DNA of 64,000 nt from Trinickia fusca (GTDB lineage Bacteria; Pseudomonadota; Gammaproteobacteria; Burkholderiales; Burkholderiaceae): assembly GCF_003628145.1 (NCBI RefSeq), contig NZ_RBZV01000004.1, positions 296,998-360,997 of the forward strand, given 5' to 3'. Made by a program: the position numbers and the translations under genes. A model generated the notes under the pieces. The model had not been told where the DNA came from and did not search any database. It saw only the letters and a list, made by a program, of their open reading frames with translations. How positions within the stretch are numbered: position 1 is the first letter of the stretch; each line of letters opens with the position of its first letter. Shown piece after piece: positions 13,657 through 36,067 of this stretch.

Positions 13657-13732
13657 AATTCGATGGCCCCAGGAAAAACGACAAAAGCGTGGCGTGCGAC
13701 GTAGCCGCGAAGCCTGTACGCACTCGTGTCGG

Positions 13733-15130: not shown

Positions 15131-15414
15131 CGCGATACCTCGATTTCAGCCGTTTATTCGTGGGCTCTCATCAAGCGCTATTAAAAAGCGCAGGGCAAGC
15201 GGACCAATATTCAAAATTATTGCGGCCGGGTTTTCCCCATTATTTTTTATTTTTTTGTCGCAATTGCAGCCGTGCTCGCATGCGCGTCGATGACATCGAA
15301 CGGGTCGAGCCCCGCGCAGCTCCCATGAGCCAAACAGCACACAGGTATCCGTTTTATTGTCGATTTACTTCCTGACACACTCGAAGCCACCGATTCCTGC
15401 CCCAGGGGGCCTCG
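15131..15414. promoter_or_regulatory. Divergent EPS promoter region
   Basis: 284 bases without a gene between the priming transferase and manC. About 15180-15270 is strongly AT-rich compared with its surroundings (runs of A/T including a T-rich tract near 15240), which marks the likely divergent promoters. I looked for a sigma-54 site (GG-N10-GC), because related Burkholderia EPS loci use one, and found only a poor match near 15160. Confidence 0.5.
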
Positions 15415-16965
15415 ATGACTATGCCGATTTCCGCGCCAGATACCGATCTTTCGCTTGCACCGTCCTCATCCGCTGCCCTCGAGCCCACCGTTCGCGCAAG
15501 GCTCAAGATTCATCCGGTCGTGCTGGCCGGAGGATCGGGCACGCGCTTGTGGCCCATGTCGCGCGAACACTATCCGAAGCAATTGATCGAGCTGCTCGGC
15601 GACGAATCGCTGCTGCAATCGACCGCACATCGCCTCGCCGACCTCACGGCCGATTTCTCGCTCGCCGATGAAGTCGTCGTCATCTGCAACGAAGAACATC
15701 GCTTCACGACCGCCGAGCAACTGCGCGCGTGCGGTGCCACCGCTCGCATCATGCTCGAGCCGCTCGGGCGCGATACCGCGCCCGCGTTGACGAGCGCGGC
15801 GCTCGACGTGCTCGCGCGCGCCGGCGAGGGCAACGACGCGGTACTGGTCGTGATGCCGGCCGATCACGCGATAGCCGATGCGCGAGGCTTCCAGGCGGCG
15901 GTTGCTACGGCGGTGCGCTATGCGGAGCAAGGCATGATCGCCACGCTCGGCATCGTGCCGACGCACGCGGAGACGGGCTACGGCTATCTGCGCCTCGGGC
16001 CCCGTCTGGCCGATGCGACCGGCGGCATCGCCGCACGCCAGCTCGTACGCTTCGTCGAGAAACCGCATCTCGAGCTGGCGAGGCAGTATGTCGAATCAGG
16101 TGAATATTGGTGGAACAGCGGCATCTTCGTCATGCGCGCCTCCACGTGGCTGCGTGCACTACGCTGGCTCGAACCGGCCATGTACGACGCGTGCTCGAAG
16201 GCTTATGCACAAGGCCGCGTCGATGGCGAGTTCTTCCGCCTCGATCGCGATGCATTCGGGCAATCGCCGTCGAACTCGATCGACTATGCGGTGATGGAGC
16301 ACTTGAGCGATGACGACGCGGTATGCGCAGGCGTCGTCGTACCGCTTGGCGCGGGATGGTCCGACGTCGGCTCATGGGATGCGATCTGGCAGATCATGCC
16401 CAAGGACGACCAGGGCAACGTCGCGCAAGGGCACGTGCTGCTCGAAGACGCGCACACGACGCTCGCGCATTCGGAGGGACGCCTCGTCGCATGCGTGGGC
16501 ACGCGCGATCTCGTCGTCGTGGAAACCGCCGATGCCGTGCTGGTCGCCGACAAGTCTCACGTGCAGGACGTGAAGAAGGTCGTGAACCGCCTGAAGGCCC
16601 AGCGGGGGCCCGAAGCGGCGAACCATCGTAAGGTCCATCGTCCGTGGGGCTACTACGACTCGGTCGACAACGGCGAACGCTTCCAGGTCAAGCGCATCGT
16701 CGTGAAGCCTGGTGCGCGTCTGTCGCTACAGATGCACCATCACCGAGCCGAGCACTGGATCGTCGTGCGCGGCACCGCCCGCGTGACACGCGGGGAAGAA
16801 ACGTTCCTTCTTTCGGAAAACGAATCGACGTACATCCCGCTCGGTGTAGTCCATCGGCTCGAAAACCCCGGCAAGCTGCCCCTCGAAATCATCGAAGTAC
16901 AGTCCGGTTCGTATCTCGGCGAAGACGACATCGTCCGCTTCGACGATACCTACGGGCGGCAATAG
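15415..16965 (+). CDS. manC: Mannose-1-phosphate guanylyltransferase/mannose-6-phosphate isomerase
   Basis: Bifunctional type II enzyme (516 residues) making GDP-mannose precursors. The N-terminal nucleotidyltransferase signature LAGGSGTRLWPMSREHYPKQ lies at about residues 38-57, and the cupin-type isomerase domain with HRPWGYYDSVD is in the last quarter. Transcribed divergently from the EPS operon, whose GDP-mannose supply it should serve; equivalent to bceA by family. Two ATGs (15415 and 15421) are possible starts. Confidence 0.93.
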   Translation: MTMPISAPDTDLSLAPSSSAALEPTVRARLKIHPVVLAGGSGTRLWPMSREHYPKQLIELLGDESLLQSTAHRLADLTADFSLADEVVVICNEEHRFTTAEQLRACGATARIMLEPLGRDTAPALTSAALDVLARAGEGNDAVLVVMPADHAIADARGFQAAVATAVRYAEQGMIATLGIVPTHAETGYGYLRLGPRLADATGGIAARQLVRFVEKPHLELARQYVESGEYWWNSGIFVMRASTWLRALRWLEPAMYDACSKAYAQGRVDGEFFRLDRDAFGQSPSNSIDYAVMEHLSDDDAVCAGVVVPLGAGWSDVGSWDAIWQIMPKDDQGNVAQGHVLLEDAHTTLAHSEGRLVACVGTRDLVVVETADAVLVADKSHVQDVKKVVNRLKAQRGPEAANHRKVHRPWGYYDSVDNGERFQVKRIVVKPGARLSLQMHHHRAEHWIVVRGTARVTRGEETFLLSENESTYIPLGVVHRLENPGKLPLEIIEVQSGSYLGEDDIVRFDDTYGRQ

Positions 16966-18474: not shown

Positions 18475-18494
18475 ATAACGCCGGGCGGCGTTAT
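18475..18494. terminator. Hairpin at the end of the DUF3501 gene
   Basis: ATAACGCC-GGGC-GGCGTTAT, 8-base perfect arms, overlapping the DUF3501 stop codon. It may end the rubrerythrin operon. No T-run follows in the minus direction. Confidence 0.4.
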
Positions 18495-19072
18495 CGGAGG
18501 TCGTTGCGCAGCGAAGCGAGCACTTGCGGCGCGATATCCTGATCGGGAACCGGATAGTTCGGATGATCACAACCGATGGTGAGGCGCGCACCATCGCGCA
18601 ACCGTTCTTTCATGCGCGGCGTGAATTCGAACCGCACGAAGTGCACGGCAGAAGTCTTCTCGTCGTTGTCGCGCTGGAGGTCTTCGTCAGCAATCGCATA
18701 CACCGCCTGCTCGCCTTCGACACGCATGAACATGCGGTCTTCGATGCCGATGAGCCGTGCCAGTGCCGCCCGGCGTTCGACCTCGTTCACATATTCGATC
18801 TGCAGCGTCGCTTTCAAATTGTTGCCGTCAGGCACGAGCGGCACGTAGGCATCGAGCTCGGCATCTATGCCTGCCTCATCGAAGATTTTTTCGATGTGAA
18901 GCATTTCCTGAATTTGATAACGGATCGTCGTCTCGTCTTCGAACAGAACGGTCAAGTGATTACCGACATGGACCAACCGGTTTTTCTTGTGCTCGATTAC
19001 TTCGTCGCGCATCGCCTTACGCACTTTCGCATAGCTTTCGAGCGTCAACAGCGAATCCCTCGTTATCGTCAT
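18491..19072 (-). CDS. DUF3501 family protein
   Basis: 193 residues matching the DUF3501 family over its full length (MTITRDSLLTLESYAKVR start, EMLHIEKIFDEAGIDAELDAYVPLVPDG, FVRFEFTPRM). Function unknown; soluble, no signal or membrane segment. It is the third gene of a conserved trio with a CCG-domain Fe-S protein (39 bases upstream) and rubrerythrin. That set recurs in many proteobacteria and suggests a shared role in peroxide or redox defence. Confidence 0.88.
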   Translation of the reverse strand: MTITRDSLLTLESYAKVRKAMRDEVIEHKKNRLVHVGNHLTVLFEDETTIRYQIQEMLHIEKIFDEAGIDAELDAYVPLVPDGNNLKATLQIEYVNEVERRAALARLIGIEDRMFMRVEGEQAVYAIADEDLQRDNDEKTSAVHFVRFEFTPRMKERLRDGARLTIGCDHPNYPVPDQDIAPQVLASLRNDLR

Positions 19073-19111
19073 GGCGAGTTATCCTTACCGATTTCAAGTG
19101 CGGTTCACGGC

Positions 19112-20449
19112 TCAAATACCGTAAGCCTTACGCAATAATGTAAGCGGATGAGCAAGCGGCGCCGGATTTAAACCGGCCTCTTCGATACCCTGCGCGATGT
19201 GGTGTCCTGCGAGTTGGCAATCCGAAGCAATATAAGCCGGCTCAGGTTCGGCCATCGCCTTGAAAACAGGCGTACCGATACGCATGGCCGTCGCGTGAAA
19301 TTCTTTCTTGACGCCGAACGTGCCCGCATGTCCCGAACAACGTTCGACGACCTTGATCTCGGTGCCGGGCACCAGCGAAAGCGCGTCGAACGTCTTGCGA
19401 CCGAGATTCTGCACGCGGCCGTGACACGGCACATGGTACGAGACCTTGCCCAGTTCGTGCTTGAAGTCGGTCTTGAGCAACCCATCGCGATGACGTGACA
19501 CGAAATACTCGAATGGGTCCCAGAACGCTTCGCTGACCGCCTTCACGTCTTCGTCTTCGGGAAACATCAGCGGCAGCTCGTGCTTGTACATCAGCACGCA
19601 GCTGGGTACGGCCCCGATCAACGCATAGCCTTCGCGAGCATACCTGGCGAGCACGGGGATGTTCTTTTCCTTCTTTGCCGCCACCCCGTCGAGGTTGCCC
19701 TGCTCGAGCAATGGCATGCCGCAACAAGCCTCGCTTGCGACGAGCTCATAGGGAACCTCGTTGTGCGCGAGCAGAGCAAGGAGGTCATGACCGATGCCCG
19801 GTTCGTTGAAATTCACATAGCAGGTCGCGTAGATCGCCACTTTGCCCGGTGTCCGTTCGCCATCTCGCACGGGGGCAGCAGGCGAGGCTTTCGCTGCGCG
19901 GCGAAATTTGCGCGCGGCGAAGTCGGGCAGCCAAGCGTGGCGGTCGACGGCCAGCGTCGCTTCGAGCGCCGCGCGCGCGGGCTTCATGCGATTGACGGCG
20001 TTCACCGTTTGAGTGACGACGGGAATGCCGGCGAAATGCCCTAACGCGTCGGTGTTCGACAGCACCTTGTCGCGCAGCGGCACCTCGCCGCGTTTGTACC
20101 TGGCCGCCTTGGCGCGCAGCATCAAATGGGGAAAGTCGACATTCCACGGATGCGGCGGCACATAAGGGCACTTCGTCATGTAGCACAGGTCGCACAGATA
20201 GCATTGATCGACGACTTTCGGATAGGCCTGCGGATCGACGTCGTGTGCCTCGCCGCTCTCCGTCGCGTCGACGAGATCGAACAGCGTCGGAAACGCGCCG
20301 CACAACGACACGCAGCGCCGGCAGCCCGCGCAGATGTCGAACACGCGTCCCAACTCGCGATCGATCGATGCCTGATCGTAGAACTCCACCGAGCGCCAAT
20401 CGAGCGGATGACGCGTCGGCGCTTCGAGACTCCCTTCCTTGTGCGGCAT
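19112..20449 (-). CDS. Heterodisulfide-reductase-like Fe-S protein (CCG domains)
   Basis: 445 residues. Two Cys-rich ferredoxin-type motifs near the N-terminus (CAGCRRCVSLC from C40; CYLCDLCYMTKCP about 45 residues later) are followed by two CCG cysteine-rich domains (ASEACCGMPL and ERCSGHAGTFG). This resembles GlpC/HdrB-like electron-transfer subunits. No flavin or membrane subunit lies beside it, so its electron partners are probably rubrerythrin and DUF3501. The frame extends to 20521, but the ATG at 20449 has GAAGGAG 9 bases upstream. Reaction unknown. Confidence 0.85.
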   Translation of the reverse strand: MPHKEGSLEAPTRHPLDWRSVEFYDQASIDRELGRVFDICAGCRRCVSLCGAFPTLFDLVDATESGEAHDVDPQAYPKVVDQCYLCDLCYMTKCPYVPPHPWNVDFPHLMLRAKAARYKRGEVPLRDKVLSNTDALGHFAGIPVVTQTVNAVNRMKPARAALEATLAVDRHAWLPDFAARKFRRAAKASPAAPVRDGERTPGKVAIYATCYVNFNEPGIGHDLLALLAHNEVPYELVASEACCGMPLLEQGNLDGVAAKKEKNIPVLARYAREGYALIGAVPSCVLMYKHELPLMFPEDEDVKAVSEAFWDPFEYFVSRHRDGLLKTDFKHELGKVSYHVPCHGRVQNLGRKTFDALSLVPGTEIKVVERCSGHAGTFGVKKEFHATAMRIGTPVFKAMAEPEPAYIASDCQLAGHHIAQGIEEAGLNPAPLAHPLTLLRKAYGI

Positions 20450-20580
20450 GAAGCAACACTCCTTCAGGGTGGCGGGCGCACCGGATGCGCTGGGCAAGGC
20501 AAATGCGCGCGACGTGCTCATGCACGCCGCGCGTCGAATGCAGCGCGTCGCCAGCGAGCTGGCGACCGCCCGGACCGCCG

Positions 20581-21003
20581 TTAGTCGGCCAGCACTTCGA
20601 GGGCCTTCGTATAGCGGTTCGCGTGGCTGCGCTCGGCCTTGGCGAGCGTCTCGAACCAGTTGGCGATTTCGTCGAAGCCTTCGTCGCGAGCAGTCTTCGC
20701 CATGCCGGGATACATATCCGTATATTCGTGCGTCTCGCCGGCGATGGCCGATTGCAGATTCAAGCGTGACGTACCGAACGGCAGACCCGTTGCGGGATCG
20801 CCCACGGCTTCCAGATATTCCAGATGACCGTGCGCGTGGCCCGTTTCGCCTTCCGCCGTCGAGCGGAACAGCGCAGCCAGATCGTTCTGACCTTCGACGT
20901 CGGCCTTCGCCGCGAAATACAGATAGCGGCGATTCGCTTGAGATTCACCAGCAAACGCGGACTTCAGGTTCTCTTCCGTTTTCGAGCCTTTCAACTGTGC
21001 CAT
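20581..21003 (-). CDS. Rubrerythrin-like diiron protein
   Basis: 140-residue ferritin-like four-helix protein with diiron ligands in [30 protein letters not shown] and [10 protein letters not shown]. It lacks the C-terminal rubredoxin domain (no CxxC), so electrons for peroxide reduction must come from a partner, plausibly the downstream Fe-S protein. AAGGAGG precedes the ATG at 21003, which excludes the longer frame to 21165. Confidence 0.92.
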
Positions 21004-21141
21004 CTGAACCTCCTTGTGGGGCGGCACGTGCGGCGGTCGATACCCGACGCACGGCCGAATCTTCTGCACTGTGGGAATGGAAACGACGCACATCGCGGCC
21101 CCCACGTCAGAAGGGGCCGTGTGCTTAAAATCTAGGAGGTC

Positions 21142-21155
21142 GGGAACGGGTTCCC
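21142..21155. promoter_or_regulatory. Palindrome upstream of the rubrerythrin gene
   Basis: GGGAAC-GG-GTTCCC, perfect 6-base arms about 140 bases upstream of the rubrerythrin ATG. On the minus strand a weak TTGGGG/TAGATT promoter-like pair spans it. Candidate operator; regulator unknown. Confidence 0.35.
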
Positions 21156-21322
21156 CAATTGTCATTTTCTATGCCGACGATAGCAATCTCGGCACCGCGC
21201 GACACTACGTAGATGCGTCGTATTCGCATGGTGAATGCCTATCCAGGGCGGACCGCCAGCGCACCTTTCAATCCTGTTCTTACCGCAACGCTCGCCCCTC
21301 CTGAATTCTTTTCCCGTTTCAT

Positions 21323-21512: not shown

Positions 21513-22691
21513 ATGGACTTCGCCCTCACCGACCGTCAGCAGGAACTTGCCCGCCGGTATCGCGACATCGGCGCTCATCACGCGCGGCTGGATGCACGCG
21601 ACGGGTTCGACTGGAACGCTTGGCACACCATCACCGACGCCGGTCTGTGGCAGCTAGCGGTGCCGACAGCGCTCGGCGGCGCGGGCGGCACGTGGGCGGA
21701 CTTCACGGCAGCGTTCGAAGCGTTGGTCGGCACCCTGCGTTCGATCGGCTTCGCGATGGCCGTCGCCAACCAGGCTACGTTGATTCATGCGTTGCTGGCG
21801 CACGGCTCGCGCGGGCAGCAGGCAAACGTGCTGCCGCGGTTGTTGAATGGCGAACCCGGTGCGACGGCCATCTCCGAGCGCGGCACCGGCACGGAGATAC
21901 GCGCGCTTCAAACGGCCCTGACGAACGACGAGCAGGATTTCCGGCTCAACGGCCACAAGTACAACGTCAGCCTCGCCCCTCATGCCGCGCTCGTGCTCGT
22001 CGCATCGCGCTACGACGACGGCCCGCGCAGCGCCACCGCGCTCGTGCTGCTCGACACCGCCCTGCGCGGCGTATCGCGCAGCGTGCCGCAGGCCACGCTC
22101 GGCGTGCACGACCTGCCGATCGGCGAACTCGAATTCGACGATGTGCCGATCGACGCCGGCAGCCTGCTGGGCACCCCGCGCGAGGGCCTCAAGACGCTCA
22201 TGCATATCGCCTCGATGAACCGCGCTTACTTCGGTCTTCTATGCGCTGCGTCGATTCATCCGTTCCTGGCGGATGCGCTCGCCTACGCCGGCACCCGCTC
22301 GATTCTCGATGTCTCGATCGACACGCACCAGCACGTGCAGCGCCGTCTCGTCGACGTGCGCATACGCGCCGAACGCTCGCGCTGGATGGCGCTGGCTGCG
22401 CTCGGCCAATTGCTGGACGACCATCCAGCCGCCCTCGAGAACTGCTCGATCGCGAAACTCACGGCCGCGCAAGACCTGACGCAATCGGCCATCGACCTGC
22501 TCGCGCTGCACGGCAGCAACGGTTATCGCAGCGGCATGCTGTCGGCGTTCGCAGCCGACGCGCTCGCGATGATCTCGGCCGGCGGCACCGAGGAGATGCA
22601 TCGCCGCAACATCTTCGCGCAGATGCAGCGCCGGCCCGACGCCGCCGCCAAAAGCGCGGCCCCGGTTAGACGCGAGGCCGCGCCGGCCTGA
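21513..22691 (+). CDS. Acyl-CoA-dehydrogenase-fold flavoprotein (TdaE/TrlB-like candidate)
   Basis: 392 residues with the three-part acyl-CoA dehydrogenase layout: N-terminal helices (MDFALTDRQQELARRYRDIG), a middle beta domain with a flavin-contact segment (AISERGTGTEIRAL, where dehydrogenases have TEPGAGSD) and a C-terminal helical domain. The usual catalytic Glu of the YEGT motif is replaced (ISAGGTEEMHRR), and the alternative Glu site of isovaleryl-type enzymes (LxxER) reads MNRAYF. An oxidative rather than dehydrogenating role is therefore possible, as in the tropone flavoprotein TdaE. It lies first in the aromatic locus and is followed by an intrinsic terminator. Family assignment is firm; function is inference. 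Confidence 0.8.
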   Translation: MDFALTDRQQELARRYRDIGAHHARLDARDGFDWNAWHTITDAGLWQLAVPTALGGAGGTWADFTAAFEALVGTLRSIGFAMAVANQATLIHALLAHGSRGQQANVLPRLLNGEPGATAISERGTGTEIRALQTALTNDEQDFRLNGHKYNVSLAPHAALVLVASRYDDGPRSATALVLLDTALRGVSRSVPQATLGVHDLPIGELEFDDVPIDAGSLLGTPREGLKTLMHIASMNRAYFGLLCAASIHPFLADALAYAGTRSILDVSIDTHQHVQRRLVDVRIRAERSRWMALAALGQLLDDHPAALENCSIAKLTAAQDLTQSAIDLLALHGSNGYRSGMLSAFAADALAMISAGGTEEMHRRNIFAQMQRRPDAAAKSAAPVRREAAPA

Positions 22692-22698
22692 GCGCCGC

Positions 22699-22719
22699 GC
22701 GGCATTCGCCGCTTTTTTT
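22699..22719 (+). terminator. Intrinsic terminator after the flavoprotein gene
   Basis: GCGGC-ATTC-GCCGC followed by seven T, starting 8 bases after the stop codon. Short stem but classic form. It would separate or attenuate expression of the downstream thioesterase and fusion genes. Confidence 0.65.
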
Positions 22720-22813
22720 CTCGTCGGATTCCATCGACCGTCGTCCCCACCCGACGTGCGCGCCGCGCCCGGCGCACGCGCACGTTCCGTTTGCTTTCGT
22801 CAAGGAGAACATC

Positions 22814-23221
22814 TTGCCCATCGTCCCCGGCCTCAAGGCACAAGCCTCATATCGCGTAGACACGCTCTCGCTCGCCGATCAATGGGGGGGTGAAGCGCAC
22901 GCGCTCGCCAGCCCGATCATGATCATCTTCATCGAGCAGACCTGCATGAAGGCGACCGACCATCTGCTCGATCCGTCGTTGATGACGGTCGGCTACTACT
23001 TCGAGATCAAGCACCTTCAGCCCACGCCGCCCGAATGGGAAGTGACCGTCGATGCGGAACTGATCCGCTCCGACGGCCGCATGATGACCTACAAAGTCAG
23101 CGTGCGCGATGCAGCCGGCGTCGTCGGCGAGGGGCTGCACACGCGTTGCGCCGTCGAGCGCGACGGCTTCCACGAGCGCCTCGCGCAACGTCGCGCGAGC
23201 GCCGCCCTCGTCGAGCAGTAA
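22814..23221 (+). CDS. FlK-like hotdog-fold acyl-CoA thioesterase
   Basis: 135 residues of single hotdog fold resembling fluoroacetyl-CoA thioesterase (FlK) and related proteins. A Glu-containing helix (IEQTCMKATD), a likely catalytic His in FEIKHLQPTPP and the C-terminal strand pair EVTVDAELIRSDGRMMTYKV with GVVGEGLHTRCAVE are visible. It should hydrolyse a small or aromatic CoA thioester. The start codon is TTG with AAGGAG 6 bases upstream, and no ATG gives the full N-terminal strand. It lies 57 bases before the fusion gene. In this context it could play the TdaD-type role of releasing a CoA-bound ring-expanded product (inference). Confidence 0.8.
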   Translation: MPIVPGLKAQASYRVDTLSLADQWGGEAHALASPIMIIFIEQTCMKATDHLLDPSLMTVGYYFEIKHLQPTPPEWEVTVDAELIRSDGRMMTYKVSVRDAAGVVGEGLHTRCAVERDGFHERLAQRRASAALVEQ

Positions 23222-23278
23222 TCGCCGCGCGTACCGCCTCGACAACACACTACGCGAACTACGCGCAAGGAGACACTC

Positions 23279-25168
23279 ATGCTGCCGCCCCTCCTCCAGT
23301 CGTTGCGCATTCCGGTCATCGCTTCGCCGATGCTGATCGCGAGCTATCCCGAGCTCGTGCTTGCCCAATGCAAGGCGGGCATCGTCGGTGCGTTTCCGGC
23401 GCTCAACGCGCGGCCCAGCGCGCAACTCGACGATTGGCTCGTGCAGATCGACGAGGCGCTCGCCGCCCATCGCATGGCCCATCCGGGCGAACCGATCGGG
23501 CCTTATGCCGTCAATCAGATCTGCCATCAATCGAACGGCCGGCTCGAAGCCGATATGCGGATCTGCCTCGACCGTCACGTGCCGCTATGGATCACGAGCC
23601 TGCGCGCGCCGCCTCGCGAAATCGTCGACGAGGTGCATCGCTATGGAGGCGTGATCATTCACGATGTCACCACCATCCGACACGCAGAGAAAGCACTCGA
23701 AGCCGGTGTCGACGGGCTCATTCTGGTCGCGGCGGGTGCCGGCGGCCATGCAGGGACGCTTTCGCCATTCGCGCTCGTGAGCGAGGTACGGCGCATGCAC
23801 GCCGGCCTGCTCGTGCTGTCCGGCGCGATCGCGAACGGCGATGCGATCGCCGCAGCCCTCGCGCTGGGTGCCGATGCGGCCTACATCGGCACGCGCTTTC
23901 TTGCCTCGCACGAGGCGAACGTCGTCGAGGGCTACAAGCAGACCCTCGTCGACGCGCACGCCGCTGACATCATCTACACGGATGCCTTCACGGGCGTGCA
24001 CGGCAACTACCTGCGGCAGAGTATCGAAGCAGCAGGCCTCGATCCGCGCAACCTGCCGCGCGCGGAAGGCGCCGCGATCGACTTCTCCGGCGACGGGGGC
24101 GTCAAGCAATGGCGCGACATCTGGGGTGCGGGGCAAGGCGTCGGCACGATCGATGCCGTCCTTGGCGCCGGCGAAATCGTCGCGCAGCTCGAGCGCGAAT
24201 TCCATGCCGCGCGCGCGAGGTTGCTGCGTGTGGCCGCCCCGCTTGGCCACGACACGGCCGGCGCCGCGTTCAGGAGCACCAGCCTGCCTTTGCCGGGTCT
24301 CCCATCACCGGTCGCGTTCCTCGGCCCGAGCGGCAGCTACACCGAAGAGGCGATGCGTACGCGCGTTGCGCTGTCCGATGAAACGCTCGCCTGCGAGAGC
24401 ATCGACGAAATCTTTGCAGCGCTCGCGGACGGGCGCGCGCGTGCCGCTATCGTACCGATCGAGAACTCGAGCGAAGGCGCCGTGGTGCGTACCGTCGACC
24501 GCTTGCTCGATACGCACACGTCGATCACGGGCGAGATCGTGATACCGGTCTCGCACTGTCTGCTGTCGATGCAACCCGACCTGACCTCGATCGACACCGT
24601 CATCGCGCATCCGCATGCACTCGCTCAGTGCCGGCAGTGGCTCGCCACGCATCTGCCGCATGCCCGGCTCGAAGAAGCGTCCAGCAATTCGGCCGCCGTG
24701 CGGAGCAGCGTCAACGCGCGCGGCAGTGCGGCCATCGCCGGCGAGCGTACCGCAGCCCAATACGGCCTGCGGATCGCAGCGCGCGCGATTCAGGACCGTC
24801 CCGACAATCACACGCGCTTTCTGGTCCTGGGCGGTGCGGCGCCGCGACCGACCGGACGCGATCGCACGAGCCTCGTCGTGCGCCTCGCGCATTCGGTCGG
24901 CTCGCTCGCTCGCGTGTTCGACGCGATTGCCCAGTGTGGTGTCTCGGTGCTGTGGCTCGAGCCGCGCCCGCTACGCGGCGAAAGCTGGGCCTACTGGTTC
25001 TTCGTCGACGTGGCCGGCCATCGCGACGAGCCGCCCGTGGCTGCGGCACTCGACGCACTTGGCGCGGTAGCCGAAGAAGTCTATGTGCTCGGCGCCTATC
25101 CGCGAGACGAAGGGGCGGCGTCGGCTTCGCTCATCCTCTCGCCCGAAACGGAGGACGTGCCATGCTGA
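23279..25168 (+). CDS. Nitronate monooxygenase-prephenate dehydratase fusion
   Basis: 629 residues in one uninterrupted frame; AAGGAGA precedes the ATG. Residues 1 to about 320 are an FMN TIM-barrel of the nitronate monooxygenase class (PVIASPM, QCKAGIVGAFPALNARP, AAGAGGHAG 151-159). After a linker (about 320-344), a complete prephenate dehydratase follows: VAFLGPSGSYTEEA (345-358), VPIENSSEG (392-400), HPHALAQC (444-451) and catalytic TRF (512-514). A C-terminal ACT domain (about 531-605) has its Phe-binding motifs altered: GSLA for GALA, LEPRP for IESRP. The second half should make phenylpyruvate, perhaps without normal feedback; the flavin half's substrate is unknown. It overlaps the next gene. 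Confidence 0.9.
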   Translation: MLPPLLQSLRIPVIASPMLIASYPELVLAQCKAGIVGAFPALNARPSAQLDDWLVQIDEALAAHRMAHPGEPIGPYAVNQICHQSNGRLEADMRICLDRHVPLWITSLRAPPREIVDEVHRYGGVIIHDVTTIRHAEKALEAGVDGLILVAAGAGGHAGTLSPFALVSEVRRMHAGLLVLSGAIANGDAIAAALALGADAAYIGTRFLASHEANVVEGYKQTLVDAHAADIIYTDAFTGVHGNYLRQSIEAAGLDPRNLPRAEGAAIDFSGDGGVKQWRDIWGAGQGVGTIDAVLGAGEIVAQLEREFHAARARLLRVAAPLGHDTAGAAFRSTSLPLPGLPSPVAFLGPSGSYTEEAMRTRVALSDETLACESIDEIFAALADGRARAAIVPIENSSEGAVVRTVDRLLDTHTSITGEIVIPVSHCLLSMQPDLTSIDTVIAHPHALAQCRQWLATHLPHARLEEASSNSAAVRSSVNARGSAAIAGERTAAQYGLRIAARAIQDRPDNHTRFLVLGGAAPRPTGRDRTSLVVRLAHSVGSLARVFDAIAQCGVSVLWLEPRPLRGESWAYWFFVDVAGHRDEPPVAAALDALGAVAEEVYVLGAYPRDEGAASASLILSPETEDVPC

Positions 25169-25872
25169 TGCGCAATCGCACTCAACGCCACGTGCAGGCG
25201 ATCCGCCACCACGCTGACGACCGCCTGCTCGTCCTGATCGAAGTCGGTGCGCATGCGAGGTGCGCATCGGCCGCGCATGACGTCGCCGTGCGCATCGACG
25301 CGTGGCGCACCATCTACGAAGACGAACTCGAGGTGCTCGCCTTCGTCCGCGGCACGGCGGCGGACGATCCGGCGATCGAGCGCGCACGCAGCGCCGCGCA
25401 ACGTCTGCATACGGTCGGCGTGCCGGTGGTGCTCGGCGTGCTGCCACCCGAGCCGGCCGGCACGCGGGCCGCACGTCGAGCTCGCTTCGAGCGATGGGGA
25501 TGGTGCGACGGCGAGGAGCCGCGCTTGGCCGCCGGGTCGACGGCCCCCGTCGACGTCGTGCTCGTGCGCCTCGACACGATCGACGAGCCCGGTCAGGCAA
25601 GCTCGATCGATACCGTCGCCACACGTCTTGTCGTCGGCTGCTCGCCTTCCGGCGATGCGATCGATCAAACCGTGCTCGCCTCGCAGACGGCACAAGACAT
25701 CGAATGCGGTGTCGCCCACGCGTGCGGCCTCCTGCTCGCACCGTCCGTCGACCATACCGACGAAGCATTCGATGACATCCACGCCCTTCTGTCCCTGCTC
25801 GCGAGCGCGGTCTACCGCCGGCGCATCACGTTCGCCACGCGTTGCTTCGCCCCGCTGCGCAGCGCGCTTTGA
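25162..25872 (+). CDS. Degenerate class I DAHP-synthase-like protein
   Basis: 236 residues; ATG 25162 overlaps the fusion-gene stop and has GGAGG upstream. By eye it follows the order of class I (AroG-type) DAHP synthases: DDRLLVLIEVG where LLVIVGPCSIHD is expected, a strand-helix DELEVLAFVRG, then GVPVVLGVLPPEP for the GLPVATEFLDP segment, and CSPSGDAIDQTV...QDIECG...GLLLAPSVD for the IDCSHGNS...GVMIES end. The KPRT loop and the metal-ligand Cys, His and Glu are missing, and it is about 100 residues short, so catalysis is unlikely. It may be a regulatory or structural relic. The resemblance is weak; an unrelated unknown protein remains possible. Confidence 0.45.
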   Translation: MLMRNRTQRHVQAIRHHADDRLLVLIEVGAHARCASAAHDVAVRIDAWRTIYEDELEVLAFVRGTAADDPAIERARSAAQRLHTVGVPVVLGVLPPEPAGTRAARRARFERWGWCDGEEPRLAAGSTAPVDVVLVRLDTIDEPGQASSIDTVATRLVVGCSPSGDAIDQTVLASQTAQDIECGVAHACGLLLAPSVDHTDEAFDDIHALLSLLASAVYRRRITFATRCFAPLRSAL

Positions 25873-25971
25873 TCCCGCCCAACCCGTGTCGCGCGCCGCT
25901 CGGCATGGGTTGCCGCACGGCGCCGACTGGCATTTCTGTCAGTTGTCGCCAGGCCATGCAAAAGCGTACGT

Positions 25972-25987
25972 TATATCTAACGATATA
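25972..25987. promoter_or_regulatory. Operator-like palindrome before the efflux operon
   Basis: TATATC-TAAC-GATATA in a short AT-rich island (about 25965-25995) 28 bases before the efflux operon start, where a promoter and repressor site would be expected. ATATCT is repeated just downstream. No regulator gene is adjacent. Confidence 0.5.
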
Positions 25988-26014
25988 TCTTACGACTCAA
26001 CTTAGCGATTCCTT

Positions 26015-27466
26015 ATGGTGTCCGCTTCCTTCTTCCCACACGTTCCGCGCGTCTGGGCCTGCGCGCTCAGCGCCGCTATCCTTGGCGGCTGCGCGGGCTT
26101 CGGCCAAGTGCCCCCGACCAGCGCGGTCAAGCCGGTCGAGACTTACGACGTCGGCGACCGCATTCGCGATGTACAGGGTGGCCCCGACCTGGCCCCACAG
26201 TGGTGGCGCGATTTTCATGATGCGGCGCTCGATCGCCTGGTCGACGATGCACGGGCGAGCGCACCGACGCTGACGGTCGTGCGCGAACGCGTCAACGAAG
26301 CGCTGGCGCGCACCGACGTCGAACGCGCGGCTGGCCGGCCGCAAATCGACGGCTCGTTGTCCGTCACCCCCACGCGCTTTCCCGGCAGCTACAAGATTCC
26401 GCCGCCGGCGGCAGGGCACTGGCAAACCGATACGCAGGTGCTCGCCGGGCTCTCGTTCGATCTCGACCTCGCCGGACGCATCGACGCCACCGTGCGTGCA
26501 GCGAGCCGTCGTGCCGACGAACAGGCAGCGCTCGAACGCGGCGCCTCGCTCGCTTTGGAAACGGCACTCGTCGCCACTTATCTGGAACTCGCGCGCGACT
26601 GGCAGTTGCGGCAGATCGCCGAAGATACGCTCGCGCAGCATCGCGCGTTACTTCGACTGACCGACCAGCGCGTGGCAGCCGGGCTCGATATGCGCATGGC
26701 CTCGCTGCGCGCCGCCGAGCCGATTCCGCTGGCCGAGAGCGAACTCGCCGGCTACGACGCGGACATCGCGGTGCTGCGCGACCGCCTGGCCGTGCTCGCG
26801 GGACGCGGCCCCGGCTATACGGCGACGCTCGTCCCCGCGCCCGCTGTCCTCGACGTGCAAGCGCAGTTGCCGCGGGCGCTACCGGCCGACCTCATCGCAC
26901 GCCGCCCCGACGTGGCTGCCGCCAAAGCCGACGTCGAGGCGAAGACGGCGCAGATCGACGTCGCGCGTGCCGCGTTCTACCCCGACATCGACCTGCTCGC
27001 GTTCGCGGGCTGGCAAAGCCTCGGGCTGCGTGCGCTGCTGAGCGGCAACAGCGCGTCGCTCGGCGTGGGCCCTGCGCTCACGCTGCCGATCTTCGAAGGA
27101 GGACGACTGCGCGCCAATCTTCGCGCGCAGGTGGCCGTCTACAACGAAGCGGTAGCGCAGTACGACGACACGGTCGTGCGTGCGCTCGCCCAGATCAGCG
27201 ACACGCTCGCCACGATCGCGACCCAACGCAAACAGCGGGACTTCACGCACGAAGCGCTGACGCGTGCTCAAAGCAGCTACGACCTCGAGACGCGCCGCTA
27301 CGAACACGGTGTCTCCGGCTATCTCGACGTGCTGCTCGCGCAAAACCGCTTGCATGAAGACCGTGCGGCCTACGCGCAAGCCCAGTCGGCCTTGCTGATC
27401 AGCCACGTTCAATTGATCGGCGCGCTCGGCGGCGCCGTCACCCAAAACGACAAGGACGTCCAATGA
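26015..27466 (+). CDS. Outer-membrane efflux lipoprotein (NodT family)
   Basis: 483 residues. Lipoprotein signal with lipobox LGGC, then two OEP repeats (YLELARDWQLR and ARAAFYPDIDLLAFAGWQ types). It is the TolC-like exit duct of a tripartite pump whose adaptor and MFS transporter genes follow with 4-base overlaps. The ribosome site is weak. Its position directly after the aromatic locus suggests it exports that product (inference). Confidence 0.9.
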   Translation: MVSASFFPHVPRVWACALSAAILGGCAGFGQVPPTSAVKPVETYDVGDRIRDVQGGPDLAPQWWRDFHDAALDRLVDDARASAPTLTVVRERVNEALARTDVERAAGRPQIDGSLSVTPTRFPGSYKIPPPAAGHWQTDTQVLAGLSFDLDLAGRIDATVRAASRRADEQAALERGASLALETALVATYLELARDWQLRQIAEDTLAQHRALLRLTDQRVAAGLDMRMASLRAAEPIPLAESELAGYDADIAVLRDRLAVLAGRGPGYTATLVPAPAVLDVQAQLPRALPADLIARRPDVAAAKADVEAKTAQIDVARAAFYPDIDLLAFAGWQSLGLRALLSGNSASLGVGPALTLPIFEGGRLRANLRAQVAVYNEAVAQYDDTVVRALAQISDTLATIATQRKQRDFTHEALTRAQSSYDLETRRYEHGVSGYLDVLLAQNRLHEDRAAYAQAQSALLISHVQLIGALGGAVTQNDKDVQ

Positions 27467-28719
27467 GTCAGCCCACCCCTTCCCAAGCCGCGCCGACGAC
27501 CGATCAAGCACAGGCGTCGCACGCATCGTTCGCTGCGCGACGACGCCGCTATTTCCGTGCATTCGGCGTCGCGCTCGTGCTGATCGCCGCAGTCGTCACC
27601 GTCTGGTGGTGGCTCGAATCGCGCAACGTCGAGAGCACCGACGACGCCTACGTCGCCGGCGATGTCGTGCAGATCTCTCCGCGCGTGGCGGGCACCGCCG
27701 TGGCCGTGCTCGCGCAAAACACCGATTGGGTCGAATCGGGCACTCCGCTCGTCGAAATCGACAAGACCGACATGCGCGTGGCACTTGATGCGGCTGTCAA
27801 TGCGCTCGCGCATTCGGTCCGCGACTATCGCTCGGCCAACGCCGACGCTTCGCGCGAGCTTGCGCAAATCCGGTTGCGCGAGTCGGACCTCGCACGTGCG
27901 CAAGACGACTTGCAGCGGCGCCTGGCCGTGGCGGCCGACGGCGGGGTCGCCAAAGAAGAGATTCGTCACGCCCACGATGCGGTCGCCGCCGCGCAAGCAG
28001 CGCTCGATGCGCAGCGCGCCGCCTATCGCGCGAGCCTCGCGCACGTCGACGGCACGACGATCGATTCGAGCCCGCTGGTCAAGGCCGCCGCCACCCAGGT
28101 CCGCAGTGCGGCACTTGCGTTGTCGCGCACCGACGTGCGCGCGCCGATCGCGGGCCGCGTCACGCGCCGACTCGTGCAAGTCGGCCAGCATGTTGCGCCG
28201 GGCACGCCTGTCATGGAGCTCGTGCCGCTCGATCGCGTGTGGGTCGATGCGAACTTCAAGGAGTCCCAACTGCGACGCATGCGCCCCGGGCAGCCCGTCG
28301 AGTTGCGCGCCGATCTGTACGGCGACGACGTCGTCTATCACGGCACCATCGAAGGCTTCGAGGCCGGCACGGGTGCCGCGTTCGCCGCCCTCCCCGCGCA
28401 GAACGCCACGGGCAACTGGATCAAGGTCGTGCAGCGCGTGCCCGTGCGCATCGCGCTCGATGCGCGCGAGCTGCGCGCTCATCCGCTGCTGATCGGCCTG
28501 TCGATGACGGCGACGGTGCGGATGACGGGCGTTGCGCGACCCGGCGAGGTGATGGCGACGACGATGGCGATGCCCCCCCTCTCCGAGCACACCGCTCGCA
28601 CGCCCGATACGACGACCGTCTACGACGACGAGGCGCATGTCGGCGACGCGCTCGTCGCCCGCACGATCCGCGCTAATAGCGGCATCGGTATCGGTATCGA
28701 CGAGAAAGCTGCACCATGA
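27463..28719 (+). CDS. EmrA-type membrane fusion protein (HlyD family)
   Basis: 418 residues: one N-terminal membrane anchor (about residues 29-48), STDDAYVAGDVVQISPRVAG opening the lipoyl half-motif, a coiled-coil hairpin (about 110-200), the second half-motif (VRAPIAGRVTRRLVQVGQHV) and a beta-barrel domain with VWVDANFKESQL. It bridges the MFS pump and the outer-membrane factor. Coupled on both sides by ATGA overlaps. Confidence 0.93.
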   Translation: MSQPTPSQAAPTTDQAQASHASFAARRRRYFRAFGVALVLIAAVVTVWWWLESRNVESTDDAYVAGDVVQISPRVAGTAVAVLAQNTDWVESGTPLVEIDKTDMRVALDAAVNALAHSVRDYRSANADASRELAQIRLRESDLARAQDDLQRRLAVAADGGVAKEEIRHAHDAVAAAQAALDAQRAAYRASLAHVDGTTIDSSPLVKAAATQVRSAALALSRTDVRAPIAGRVTRRLVQVGQHVAPGTPVMELVPLDRVWVDANFKESQLRRMRPGQPVELRADLYGDDVVYHGTIEGFEAGTGAAFAALPAQNATGNWIKVVQRVPVRIALDARELRAHPLLIGLSMTATVRMTGVARPGEVMATTMAMPPLSEHTARTPDTTTVYDDEAHVGDALVARTIRANSGIGIGIDEKAAP

Positions 28720-30266
28720 AAGCCCTATCGTTTCTGCGCCGTGGCCCTACGTCGCCACTCGAACCGCTGCACGGTGCGGCGCTGATCCCGATCGCCATGG
28801 CGATCAGCATCGCGAACTTCATGCAGACGCTCGACCTCACGATCGCCAACGTCGCCGTGCCGACGATCTCGGGCGACCTCGGCGTATCGCCCGACATGGG
28901 CACGTGGATGCTCACGTGTTTCGCCACACCGCTCGCGATCACGCTGCCGCTGACGGGCTGGCTCGCGCAGCGTTTCGGACAGGTACGGCTCTTTTGCGTG
29001 TCGTTGGCGCTGTTCATCCTGACGTCCGCGCTGTGCGGTGTCGCGCCGAACTTCGAGACGCTGCTCTTGTTTCGCGCGCTGCAAGGCGCGGTGTCGGGGC
29101 CGTTGACGGCGTTGTCGCAAGCGTTGCTCATCGCCGTGTTTCCGGCCGCCCGCCGCAATGTCGCGCTCGCGGTCTGGCAGACGACGACATTCGTCGCGCC
29201 GGTGCTGGGGCCGATCGCGGGCGGCTGGATCACCGACAACATCTCGTGGCCGTGGATCTTCTACATCAACGTGCCGACCGGCATCGCCGTGCTGCTGATC
29301 CTGACACGCGGCCTGGCCGGACGCGACAACCCGACGCGCAGGCTGCCCGTCGACGCCGTCGGCCTCGTGCTGCTCGCCCTGACCTTCGGCTCGCTGCAAT
29401 TGATCTTCGACCGCGGGCAGACACTGGACTGGTTCAGTGCCACGCCCATCCGTGTGCTGGCCGTGATTTGCGCAATCAGCTTCATCGCGCTCGTGATGTG
29501 GGAGTTGACCGACGAACATCCGATCGTCGATTTGCGGCTCTTTGCCGATCGCAACTTTCTCGCGGGCACCGTCGCCGTGACGGTCGGCTTCGGCGCGTAT
29601 TACGGGGCACTCGTGCTCGTGCCGCTGTGGCTGCAGACGGAGCAGGGATACACCGCGACGTGGGCCGGCATCGCCACGGCGCCACTGGGCATCGCCGGCA
29701 TTCTCATCGCGCCGGTGATCGGCCGTATTCAGCATCGCGTCGATCCACGCTGGTTCGCGACGGCCGCGCTGGTCGGCTGGGGCGCGGCATCGTTCTGGCG
29801 GACAGGCTTCAATACCGAGGTGACGATCGACGAAATTGGCTGGAATTCACTGCTGATGGGCGCGGCAACCGCCCTCTTCGTCACGCCGCTGGTATCGCTG
29901 TCGATCGCGGCGCTGCCGCGCGAACGTTTGCCCGCGGCATCGGGTCTGCAAAATGCGCTGCGCCGCATCGGTACGAGCACGGCGACCGCGCTGGCGCCGA
30001 CGTATTTCGAACGCCGCTCGCGTGTGCACAGCACCTATCTGATCGAGCGCATCACGCCATTCAATCGTTCGTTCTCCGAATGGTTCGACACGTTGCGGCA
30101 TGCGGGGATGAGCACGGATGGCGCGCTGGCCTCGATCGCGCGAGCGGTCGACGTTCAGGCGCACATGCTCGCGCTCAACGACTTCTCGGCGGGATGCACG
30201 GTGCTGTTCGCGGCGACGCTGGCGGTGGTCTGGGCGACACGGTATCGGCGGGCGGAGAGAGGGTGA
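28716..30266 (+). CDS. EmrB-type DHA2 family MFS drug transporter
   Basis: 516 residues with 14 predicted membrane segments. The DHA2/EmrB signatures are FMQTLDLTIANVAVPTISGDLG in the first helix region and LGPIAGGWITDNISWPWIFYINVP around helix 5. It is a proton-driven exporter working with the adjacent adaptor and outer-membrane factor. No MarR-type repressor gene, common for emr operons, is found nearby. Confidence 0.93.
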   Translation: MKALSFLRRGPTSPLEPLHGAALIPIAMAISIANFMQTLDLTIANVAVPTISGDLGVSPDMGTWMLTCFATPLAITLPLTGWLAQRFGQVRLFCVSLALFILTSALCGVAPNFETLLLFRALQGAVSGPLTALSQALLIAVFPAARRNVALAVWQTTTFVAPVLGPIAGGWITDNISWPWIFYINVPTGIAVLLILTRGLAGRDNPTRRLPVDAVGLVLLALTFGSLQLIFDRGQTLDWFSATPIRVLAVICAISFIALVMWELTDEHPIVDLRLFADRNFLAGTVAVTVGFGAYYGALVLVPLWLQTEQGYTATWAGIATAPLGIAGILIAPVIGRIQHRVDPRWFATAALVGWGAASFWRTGFNTEVTIDEIGWNSLLMGAATALFVTPLVSLSIAALPRERLPAASGLQNALRRIGTSTATALAPTYFERRSRVHSTYLIERITPFNRSFSEWFDTLRHAGMSTDGALASIARAVDVQAHMLALNDFSAGCTVLFAATLAVVWATRYRRAERG

Positions 30267-31146: not shown

Positions 31147-31198
31147 CTGGTGATGGCGTGGACGATGCGGTATCGGCGAGCGGGGAAGGGTCGAGGGT
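31147..31198. repeat. Direct-repeat copy 2 (decayed EmrB-like 3' end)
   Basis: Imperfect copy of 30219-30270 without a supporting open gene. The two copies bracket the M91 protease gene, as expected if that gene arrived by insertion next to the efflux gene's 3' end. The rest of 31050-31197 shows no gene. Confidence 0.45.
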
Positions 31199-32325
31199 CA
31201 GGCTTGAGACGAATCGTTGAGCTCGTAACTGGTGCTGCGCCCGCCGGCTGCGGACTTGCGCAGCACATCATGGGCGATCAGCTCGCTGATGTCGCGCAGC
31301 GCCGTATCCGCCGAACATTTGGCAATCGCTGCCCACTTGCTGCTGGTCAGCTTCCCGTCGAAACCGTCGAGCAGGCGATTCACCAATTTCACTTGCCGCG
31401 CGTTCATCGGTGTATGGGCGAACCGCCGCCAAAAACGCGCCTTCGTCAGCACTGCATCGAGCGAACGTTGCGCCTGATCGACGGCGCCATGGAGCGTCGT
31501 CAGAAACCAGCTAAGCCAGGGCGTCACGTCCAGCGTCGACTTTTGGGTTCGCTCGAGGATGTCGTAATACGCCTTGCGCTCGCGCTGGATCTGAGCCGAA
31601 AGGCTGTAGAAGCGTTGTGACGCGCCATCTGCGCGCGCCAGCAGCAAGTCGCCGATCGCACGGGCAATGCGTCCATTGCCATCGTCGAACGGATGCAGCG
31701 TGACGAACCATAAATGACCGAGGGCAGCTTTGATGAGGGGTGGCTCGGGCGTCTCTGCATCGAGCCAGTCGAGCAGGCGCGCCATCTCGGCTTCGAGGCG
31801 GTCAGCTGGCGGCGCTTCGAAATGCACGCGTTGGCGACCGATTGGCCCCGAAACTACTTGCATCGGCCCACGAGCGTCATCCCGCCACGCGGCAACCGTA
31901 ATTCTGGACATACCCGAGTAACCGGTGGGGAACAACGCCGCGTGCCAACCGAAGAGCCGCTCCTTCGATAGCGGGGCATGGTAGTTCTCCGCGGCATCCA
32001 GCACCATCTCGACCACACCGTCGACATGCCGATCAACGGGGGCGAGCGCACCGATGTCGACACCGAGGCGACGTGCAATGGATGAGCGCACGGACTCGAC
32101 GTTCAGATGCTCGCCCTCGATCTCACTAGTCTTGACCACGTCTTCGGTCAAAGCAGCAAGACTGGCCTCGCTACGCAGCGTCATGCCGACATCGGCCAAG
32201 CGCCCGAGCAAGAGCCCCTGGGCGCGGCTGACCTCGGCCATCGGCGCAGCCAGTGCGGCCAAGTCGTAGCGCCAGTTCGGCCAATCATCGGCCTGCCAGA
32301 TGTAGGTGTAATCTCCGCTTTCCAT
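31198..32325 (-). CDS. Fic family protein with DUF4172 and winged-helix domain
   Basis: 375 residues. The N-terminal DUF4172-type segment (YIWQADDWPNWRYD) is followed by an inhibitory motif TSEIEGE (T66-E70-G71), the complete Fic motif HPFDDGNGRIAR (about 211-222) and a C-terminal winged helix (about 324-375; TSSKWAAIAKCSADTALRDI). It is a likely self-regulated protein AMPylator or related transferase. The ATG at 32325 is preferred over the upstream frame to 32373 because it begins the conserved domain and lies inside the operator array. The HTH may bind those repeats for autorepression (inference). Confidence 0.87.
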   Translation of the reverse strand: MESGDYTYIWQADDWPNWRYDLAALAAPMAEVSRAQGLLLGRLADVGMTLRSEASLAALTEDVVKTSEIEGEHLNVESVRSSIARRLGVDIGALAPVDRHVDGVVEMVLDAAENYHAPLSKERLFGWHAALFPTGYSGMSRITVAAWRDDARGPMQVVSGPIGRQRVHFEAPPADRLEAEMARLLDWLDAETPEPPLIKAALGHLWFVTLHPFDDGNGRIARAIGDLLLARADGASQRFYSLSAQIQRERKAYYDILERTQKSTLDVTPWLSWFLTTLHGAVDQAQRSLDAVLTKARFWRRFAHTPMNARQVKLVNRLLDGFDGKLTSSKWAAIAKCSADTALRDISELIAHDVLRKSAAGGRSTSYELNDSSQA

Positions 32326-32406
32326 GCGGAGATTATGACCGCCATTCTCCGCATCGGCAACCAATCTCCGCATTTCTTGCGGAGATTAGCGCGACGATTC
32401 TCCGCG
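32311..32406. promoter_or_regulatory. Array of (A)TCTCCGC half-sites over the fic start
   Basis: Six half-sites in 96 bases. One inverted pair ATCTCCGC-N7-GCGGAGAT (32311-32333) spans the start codon, one perfect pair AATCTCCGCA-N5-TGCGGAGATT lies at 32363-32387, and single sites lie at 32344-32353 and 32397-32406. The spacing and symmetry point to cooperative binding of a repressor. Confidence 0.65.
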
Positions 32407-36051: not shown

Positions 36052-36067
36052 CCGGCCTAAAGGCCGG
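36052..36067. repeat. Right-end hairpin of the IS605-like element
   Basis: Perfect 6-base stem CCGGCC-TAAA-GGCCGG; it contains the tnpB stop codon and lies 14 bases from the response-regulator start. In TnpB systems the guide-RNA scaffold ends here. Confidence 0.7.

Follow-up and report, generated by a model that had tools for sequence, protein, structure and literature searches.

We analyzed a 64,000-nucleotide stretch of the Trinickia fusca genome (6.10 Mb in 41 contigs), positions 296998 to 360997 of contig C34, hereafter called the window. At window positions 21513-30266, seven genes, every one an open reading frame on the + strand, probably represent half of a tropolone-type biosynthetic system of the TdaE kind that is completed by genes elsewhere in the genome. 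Judged by gene content, the window carries only this half, its complement being encoded on contig C14, and the product would most likely be a tropolone or hydroxylated tropolone. An initial annotation had named the locus as a candidate for tropone or tropolone biosynthesis, with an acyl-CoA dehydrogenase (ACAD)-fold flavoprotein lacking the usual catalytic base, a hotdog CoA thioesterase, a complete prephenate dehydratase (PDT) fused to an FMN enzyme, a protein similar to 3-deoxy-D-arabino-heptulosonate-7-phosphate (DAHP) synthase, and a tripartite efflux operon following the biosynthetic genes. Frame reading and Pfam and NCBIfam searches located all of these parts where they had been placed; the label of the DAHP-synthase-like protein is right but weakly based.

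The flavoprotein (21513-22691; 392 amino acids) has the ACAD fold by sequence, with three acyl-CoA dehydrogenase Pfam domains, and is 43 to 45% identical to TdaE of Phaeobacter inhibens DSM 17395 (WP_014881725.1), the accession of the enzyme characterized in PMC8283759 (here and below, statements from papers cited by PMC number follow the accessible parts of their text). We built a tree of 26 proteins: 13 flavoproteins of the window type, which we call TdaE2; four other TdaE proteins, labeled TdaE1, from P. inhibens, contig C38 of T. fusca, Burkholderia anthina, and Burkholderia puraquae; and nine ACADs of T. fusca itself, with TpoE and the Burkholderia plantarii TdaE outside the set. Of 16 ACAD places considered, 14 were available as loci; one of these is the C38 TdaE, and a phmmer search with the window protein picked nine of the other 13, so that four were dropped. 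The 17 TdaE proteins separated from the nine ACADs with support of 100/99, and TdaE2 formed a single group of 13 with support of 100/100; the proteins sharing the TdaE1 label do not form one clade (0% of bootstrap trees). At the two alignment positions where ACADs have their catalytic Glu, window TdaE2 has G357 and N236, and P. inhibens TdaE likewise lacks Glu at both. Eighteen positions are invariant across all 17 TdaE rows, TdaE2 included, and absent from the nine ACADs; one of these is N151, presumably near the flavin, where eight of the nine ACADs have Trp or Phe. By grouping and by residues, we assign the window flavoprotein to the TdaE family rather than to the ordinary ACADs.

This TdaE-type family is rare. 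Counting T. fusca, at least nine of the 149 relatives searched have a match at E ≤1e-30, as do at least two of 398 phylum genomes at E ≤1e-60, with the best 12 and best 4 candidates per genome scored in the respective searches, so that some matches may have been missed. Among the matches listed for the phylum genomes at E ≤1e-60, the only TdaE-like one outside T. fusca was locus L088 (G260:C2:94669-95766; 46%). TdaE2 was found in 15 genomes (one scan of genome contigs used two short peptide patterns): T. fusca, genome G009, Trinickia soli, Trinickia sp. Y13, bin FW106, Trinickia diaoshuihuensis, and Trinickia dabaoshanensis on the Trinickia side, and Paraburkholderia ribeironis, Burkholderia cepacia LK29, B. 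anthina, B. puraquae, two Burkholderia arboris genomes, Burkholderia sp. MS389, and Burkholderia lata among the others. The gene set is conserved together: the order TdaE2, FlK thioesterase, nitronate monooxygenase (NMO)-like protein, PDT recurs in 11 of the 15 genomes, T. fusca included, which span Trinickia, the Burkholderia cepacia complex, and P. ribeironis. A pump follows the set in 9 of these 11; it lies on the opposite side in P. ribeironis, and in B. arboris LMG 24066 the contig stops before reaching it. Neither of the two outcomes that the initial annotation had named as refuting its reading, a flavoprotein placed among canonical ACADs with a catalytic Glu or a gene set not kept together in other genomes, was observed.

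The thioesterase (22814-23221; 135 amino acids; TTG start after AAGGAG) belongs to the FlK family (PF22636, 82.2 bits; COG5496-like). Its residues S33, E41, and H67 fall at the FlK Thr(Ser)/Glu/His positions in an alignment with FlK structures from the PDB; we take these positions to be the catalytic triad, and they are kept in all 12 aligned sequences, that of the window included. A single 547-amino-acid reading frame of P. ribeironis (L048 10001-11644) encodes both TdaE2 and FlK. This fusion, together with the adjacency of the two genes in 11 of the 15 genomes, fits consecutive steps of one pathway. A flavoprotein paired with a thioesterase has a precedent in Pseudomonas, where TpoE requires the thioesterase TpoD for CoA release (PMC11481866).

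The next gene (23279-25168) encodes a fusion protein composed of an NMO-like FMN domain (residues 1 to ∼335, 23279-24283; PF03060, 82.5 bits) and a complete PDT with its ACT part (24284-25168; PF00800, 192 bits; NF008865, 245.7 bits, over the cutoff of 219), in which the chorismate mutase domain is absent. The GGHAG motif of the NMO-like domain is present in all seven aligned sequences, the window's among them. In relatives whose frames were read, the NMO-like protein is a separate gene; it is followed by a chorismate mutase-PDT gene in T. diaoshuihuensis, B. anthina, B. cepacia LK29, and Burkholderia sp. MS389, and in P. ribeironis by a PDT gene lacking the mutase part, with an acyl-homoserine lactone synthase-like gene (L048 12609-13289) between the two. 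P. ribeironis also has a LuxR-type gene at L048 8836-9573. Since NMO and chorismate mutase-PDT are separate genes in relatives, the window fusion may have arisen through loss, in frame, of the NMO stop codon together with the chorismate mutase part; alternatively, it may derive from an ancestor without that part. The PDT motif TRF is kept in the window protein, as in all 10 aligned PDTs, PheA included. The housekeeping PheA has an ESRP motif, which we take to be part of the phenylalanine site; this motif reads EPRP in the window PDT and is missing from all nine aligned cluster PDTs; if the motif has this role, its loss would fit a feedback-insensitive supply of precursor.

The protein encoded at 25162-25872 (236 amino acids) had been annotated as DAHP-synthase-like. 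That label stands, weakly: a match of 19 bits to AroG (cutoff, 568) over residues 6 to 60, with no Pfam match. The catalytic motifs do not, since the GPCSIHD and KPRTT stretches of the genome's DAHP synthases are missing by eye; on these grounds we reject the idea that the window encodes an active DAHP synthase, and the protein is probably not catalytic. Relatives at 25 to 32% identity occur in eight other loci, one of them the C38 cluster described below. Its AlphaFold model (nine rows) had a mean pLDDT of 50.1, too poor for use, and a PDB search with it returned six matches at E values of 0.88 to 8.3, all of which we took as chance. The degenerate protein adjoins the PDT in both tropolone-type clusters of T. 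fusca (window 25162-25872; C38, L016 15359-16102).

The efflux operon comprises an outer membrane factor (OMF) of the NodT family (26015-27466; TIGR01845, 349.7 bits, cutoff 210), an EmrA-type periplasmic adaptor (27463-28719; NF011715, 391 bits, under the curated cutoff of 563, and syntenic in relatives), and an EmrB-type DHA2 exporter of the major facilitator superfamily (28716-30266; TIGR00711, 440 bits, cutoff 230). The window EmrB is 74 to 78% identical to the cluster exporters of relatives. A further OMF-like stretch, 29% identical to the cluster OMF, lies at window 44084-45322 on the − strand.

In relatives, the pump is adjoined by a divergent operon encoding TdaD (a COG0824-type thioesterase), a DAHP synthase, the alpha, beta, and ferredoxin components of a Rieske oxygenase, and one or two DUF1330 proteins, with a group A FAD monooxygenase similar to NicC in P. 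ribeironis, T. soli, and FW106. TdaD and a LuxR-type stretch lie beside the cluster in all seven relatives whose stretch reached that far, and a LysR gene does so in six of the seven. In T. fusca this divergent half, the monooxygenase included, is found on contig C14 (43,023 bases) at L071 (C14:20000-39999) 9186-16648, where ten genes, all with open frames, encode LysR, a LuxR helix-turn-helix protein, TdaD, a DAHP synthase, Rieske alpha, beta, and ferredoxin, two DUF1330 proteins, and the NicC-like FAD monooxygenase. By eye, a VgrG-looking gene comes next, at L071 16934. The window has no COG0824-type (TdaD/TpoD) thioesterase; the TdaD relative on C14 lies at L071 10792-11226. The C14 DAHP synthase matches PF00793 at 271 bits, and the Rieske alpha subunit shares 88% identity with its P. 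ribeironis counterpart. For the alpha subunits of P. ribeironis and B. anthina, the nearest protein in the PDB is salicylate 5-hydroxylase (7c8z); NCBIfam scores for the Rieske proteins were all under cutoff. In the PDB, the nearest match of the C14 FAD enzyme is the decarboxylating 6-hydroxynicotinate 3-monooxygenase; decarboxylative vanillate 1-hydroxylase comes next and "Tropone 2-monooxygenase" (8rqh, fourth) after that, with E values of 1e-94 to NicC and 3e-42 to 8rqh. From its name, 8rqh is probably TrlE, an enzyme that replaces a carboxyl with a hydroxyl group and binds salicylate and tropone-2-carboxylate (PMC11110157).

T. fusca also contains a second, canonical-looking tropolone-type cluster on contig C38 (C38:5000-24999, L016 770-16757). 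Its genes encode an EmrAB-OMF pump, LysR and TetR regulators, HpaB-like, short-chain dehydrogenase/reductase (SDR), and CitE-like lyase proteins, TdaD, TdaE1, a DAHP synthase, a chorismate mutase-PDT, a degenerate DAHP-like protein, and a flavin-reductase-like protein; the PDT was named by profile, TdaD and TdaE by identity, and the remainder by eye. The C38 TdaD and TdaE are 55 and 53% identical to their P. inhibens counterparts. Between the window and C38, the degenerate DAHP-like proteins are 25% identical, the EmrAB components 48 to 53% alike, and the OMFs 34% alike. B. anthina and B. puraquae, too, each have another TdaE besides TdaE2. In both (L026 and L027), this further TdaE is beside a CitE-like lyase gene with an EmrAB pump nearby, and in B. 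anthina also beside a gene that by eye looks like a pyridoxal phosphate-dependent lyase. Trinickia is among the genera whose clusters hold both DAHP synthase and PDT (PMC11481866).

Precursor supply would depend on phenylacetate (paa) genes elsewhere, as the initial annotation anticipated when it found no PaaZ-type enoyl-CoA hydratase (ECH) in the window: none of the 16 PaaZ-type places is on C34. In T. fusca, PaaA on C5 and the PaaN_2 aldehyde dehydrogenase, PaaG, and PaaK on C7 score over cutoff. No place in the genome reaches the cutoff of the fused PaaZ model TIGR02278; for ring opening there is a weak stand-alone MaoC-type ECH candidate on C9, and a second, weaker match to the hydratase profile on C23, where the frame scanned nearby is a different gene. 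Both shikimate-pathway supply genes, DAHP synthase on C14 and PDT in the window, are present.

Put together, these parts would make the following route. The window PDT and C14 DAHP synthase would raise phenylpyruvate and hence phenylacetate, and the paa enzymes would form phenylacetyl-CoA, epoxidize it, and open the ring. The aldehyde that escapes oxidation would yield a seven-membered CoA ester (2-hydroxycyclohepta-1,4,6-triene-1-carboxyl-CoA), which TdaE2 would dehydrogenate and oxygenate, with CoA released by FlK, the C14 TdaD, or both. The salicylate-5-hydroxylase-like Rieske enzyme of C14 may then hydroxylate the resulting seven-membered acid, which resembles salicylate, or a tropolone derived from that acid, and/or the NicC-like monooxygenase may carry out ipso-hydroxylation with loss of CO2; the OMF-EmrA-EmrB pump would export the product. 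Considerably more tentatively, this may be a new tropolone route common to Trinickia, Paraburkholderia, and the B. cepacia complex, in which TdaE2, FlK, and the Rieske oxygenase, in some members with the NicC-like ipso-hydroxylase, could lead to a hydroxytropolone that is undescribed or as yet unassigned to genes.

Among known systems, the tda genes of P. inhibens, which make tropodithietic acid, share with the window a TdaE-family flavoprotein adjoining a small thioesterase, a reliance on paa genes, and a weakly PDT-like protein (TdaC; PMC7497051). The window differs from tda in having FlK in place of TdaD in its half, a complete PDT, an EmrAB pump, and a TdaE2 on a separate branch, and no TdaB-like glutathione transferase is among its cluster genes. 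The putative tropolone clusters of B. plantarii and Burkholderia cenocepacia (PMC8283759) and the C38 cluster likewise combine TdaE with shikimate-pathway genes, a thioesterase, and transporters, and the LysR and degenerate DAHP-like proteins of C38 have relatives in the window-type system. C38 is set apart by its HpaB-like, SDR, CitE-like, and flavin-reductase-like genes (by eye), and the window type by FlK, NMO, the Rieske oxygenase, DUF1330, and, in some members, the NicC-like monooxygenase. The tpo system of Pseudomonas, which makes 3,7-dihydroxytropolone (PMC11481866), also pairs a flavoprotein (TpoE) with a separate thioesterase (TpoD); however, TpoD is of the COG0824 type, the precursor genes (TpoF and TpoG) differ, and the window system, unlike tpo as described there, encodes candidate ring hydroxylases (C14).

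The trl system of Streptomyces, another source of 3,7-dihydroxytropolone (PMC11110157, PMC7497051), resembles the window system in its presumed DAHP synthase, its thioesterase, its bifunctional chorismate-to-phenylpyruvate enzyme, and TrlE, a group A FAD monooxygenase from the broad family to which the C14 enzyme belongs. We rejected membership in trl, since TdaE2 has an ACAD fold and the C14 FAD enzyme is nearer NicC than 8rqh. TrlE and TdaE have no structural relationship (PMC11110157); the PaaY-like thioesterase TrlF, for which a carbonic anhydrase-type mechanism has been proposed, is unlike the window FlK; and the trl descriptions, so far as accessible, name no Rieske oxygenase, unlike the C14 half. 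The initial annotation had grouped TrlB with the ACAD-fold flavoproteins, which was mistaken: TrlB is a presumed DAHP synthase (PMC7497051), and trl uses group A FAD monooxygenases (PMC11110157). The closest description is that of uncharacterized clusters in B. cepacia and other bacteria in which COG5496 thioesterases lie beside TpoE-like flavoproteins, reported from genome mining in 2024 (PMC11481866); they very likely represent the cluster type described here, and the main text of that paper makes no mention of Rieske or salicylate. Our system thus appears to be a variant of the TdaE-type cluster that has FlK and NMO and keeps its tailoring genes in a half of their own; PMC11481866 partly foresaw it. 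Literature searches joining tropolone with fluoroacetyl-CoA thioesterase or with salicylate 5-hydroxylase gave no match, supplements, figures, and subscription papers lying outside the search.

Several observations weigh against a tropolone-type system. The function is assigned by homology only. Searching both halves with the PaaZ profile gave no hydratase match, nor was a dedicated flux-steering ECH like TrlA or PaaZ2 seen, and none of the window cluster genes was recognized as a regulator. The tree tool warned of long ACAD branches. The TdaE2 genes of T. soli, Y13, FW106, and G009 are solitary, that of G009 with an in-frame TAG; TdaE2 can therefore persist without the cluster. The remaining points bear on two alternatives, which are weighed next.

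The better of these, though we think it unlikely, is that the T. fusca system is an eroding remnant whose genes are intact but whose pathway has been split and whose product has been lost, which would be compatible with a tropolone-type function of the ancestral system. The C14 half lies 6 kb from the near contig end, whereas the window half is deep inside the 497-kb contig C34, so the two are truly apart in the present assembly, and the possible in-frame deletion behind the NMO-PDT fusion would also suit erosion. Further losses are seen in sister genomes: T. soli and FW106 have FlK-NMO-EmrA (with EmrB) elsewhere, in FW106 across two contigs, but NMO and EmrA are not separated there by genes for PDT, a DAHP-like protein, or an OMF (which were not sought elsewhere); Y13 and G009, which keep TdaE2, have no FlK match at E ≤1e-5; and G003 has just a 48- to 49-residue FlK stretch. 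From these losses, the lineage seems to show the system at several stages of break-up, of which T. fusca may be an early one. Against loss of function in T. fusca, the seven window genes and ten C14 genes are all open frames, the PDT TRF motif and FlK triad positions are kept, and the DAHP synthase missing from the window half is present on C14.

A slightly less probable alternative is that the substrate of TdaE2 is some other CoA thioester and that the system makes a nontroponoid aromatic from phenylpyruvate- or salicylate-type precursors, with the Rieske and FAD enzymes as ordinary benzenoid hydroxylases. At 21 positions all 13 TdaE2 rows differ from all four other TdaE rows, and the TdaE2 substrate may differ accordingly. 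The Rieske enzyme is very near salicylate 5-hydroxylase, and a 71% identical paralogue on C6, beside genes that by eye encode a branched-chain amino acid-type transporter and with no DAHP synthase match beside it, places the C14 enzyme close to catabolic-looking ones. Many TpoE-like clusters probably do not make tropolones, according to PMC11481866. TdaE2 nevertheless keeps the 18 positions that set the TdaE rows apart from the ACADs, and the genes that accompany it, for PDT, DAHP synthase, TdaD, a degenerate DAHP-like protein, and EmrAB, correspond to those of C38. Finally, an ordinary ACAD beside unrelated shikimate and drug-efflux genes, as the generic ACAD Pfam domains and NCBIfam scores far under cutoff might suggest, is very improbable and was rejected on the 26-protein tree and the residues, including the absent catalytic Glu, and is further opposed by synteny across three genera and by the TdaE2-FlK fusion.

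Upstream of the tropolone-type locus, outside the pathway, genes for a rubrerythrin, a cysteine-rich CCG protein, and a DUF3501 protein (18491-21165, − strand; Pfam, tblastn) are neighbors common to window TdaE2 and the four solitary TdaE2 genes, and in the 26-protein tree, which has no G009 row, window TdaE2 groups with those of T. soli, Y13, and FW106. Just downstream, on the − strand, is a gene for a Fic/DOC protein with a DUF4172 domain (31198-32373); farther on, an IS605 OrfB/TnpB-type transposon protein with a Cas12f-like TNB domain is encoded at 36057-37331 (−).

For the hydroxytropolones of Pseudomonas, the way in which the hydroxyl groups are added is stated as open (PMC11481866); the window-type system offers testable candidates for such hydroxylation in its Rieske oxygenase and NicC-like monooxygenase. 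The natural TdaE2-FlK fusion of P. ribeironis links two steps, and T. fusca itself has two tropolone-type clusters. If the proposed route is correct, it would provide a Rieske oxygenase acting on a troponoid and would bring the tda and trl types of strategy together in a single pathway. Tropolones chelate metals and serve as antibiotics and signals, and they are toxic to plants. Given these properties, a second class of cluster in soil- and plant-associated Burkholderiaceae would be relevant to biocontrol and plant disease.

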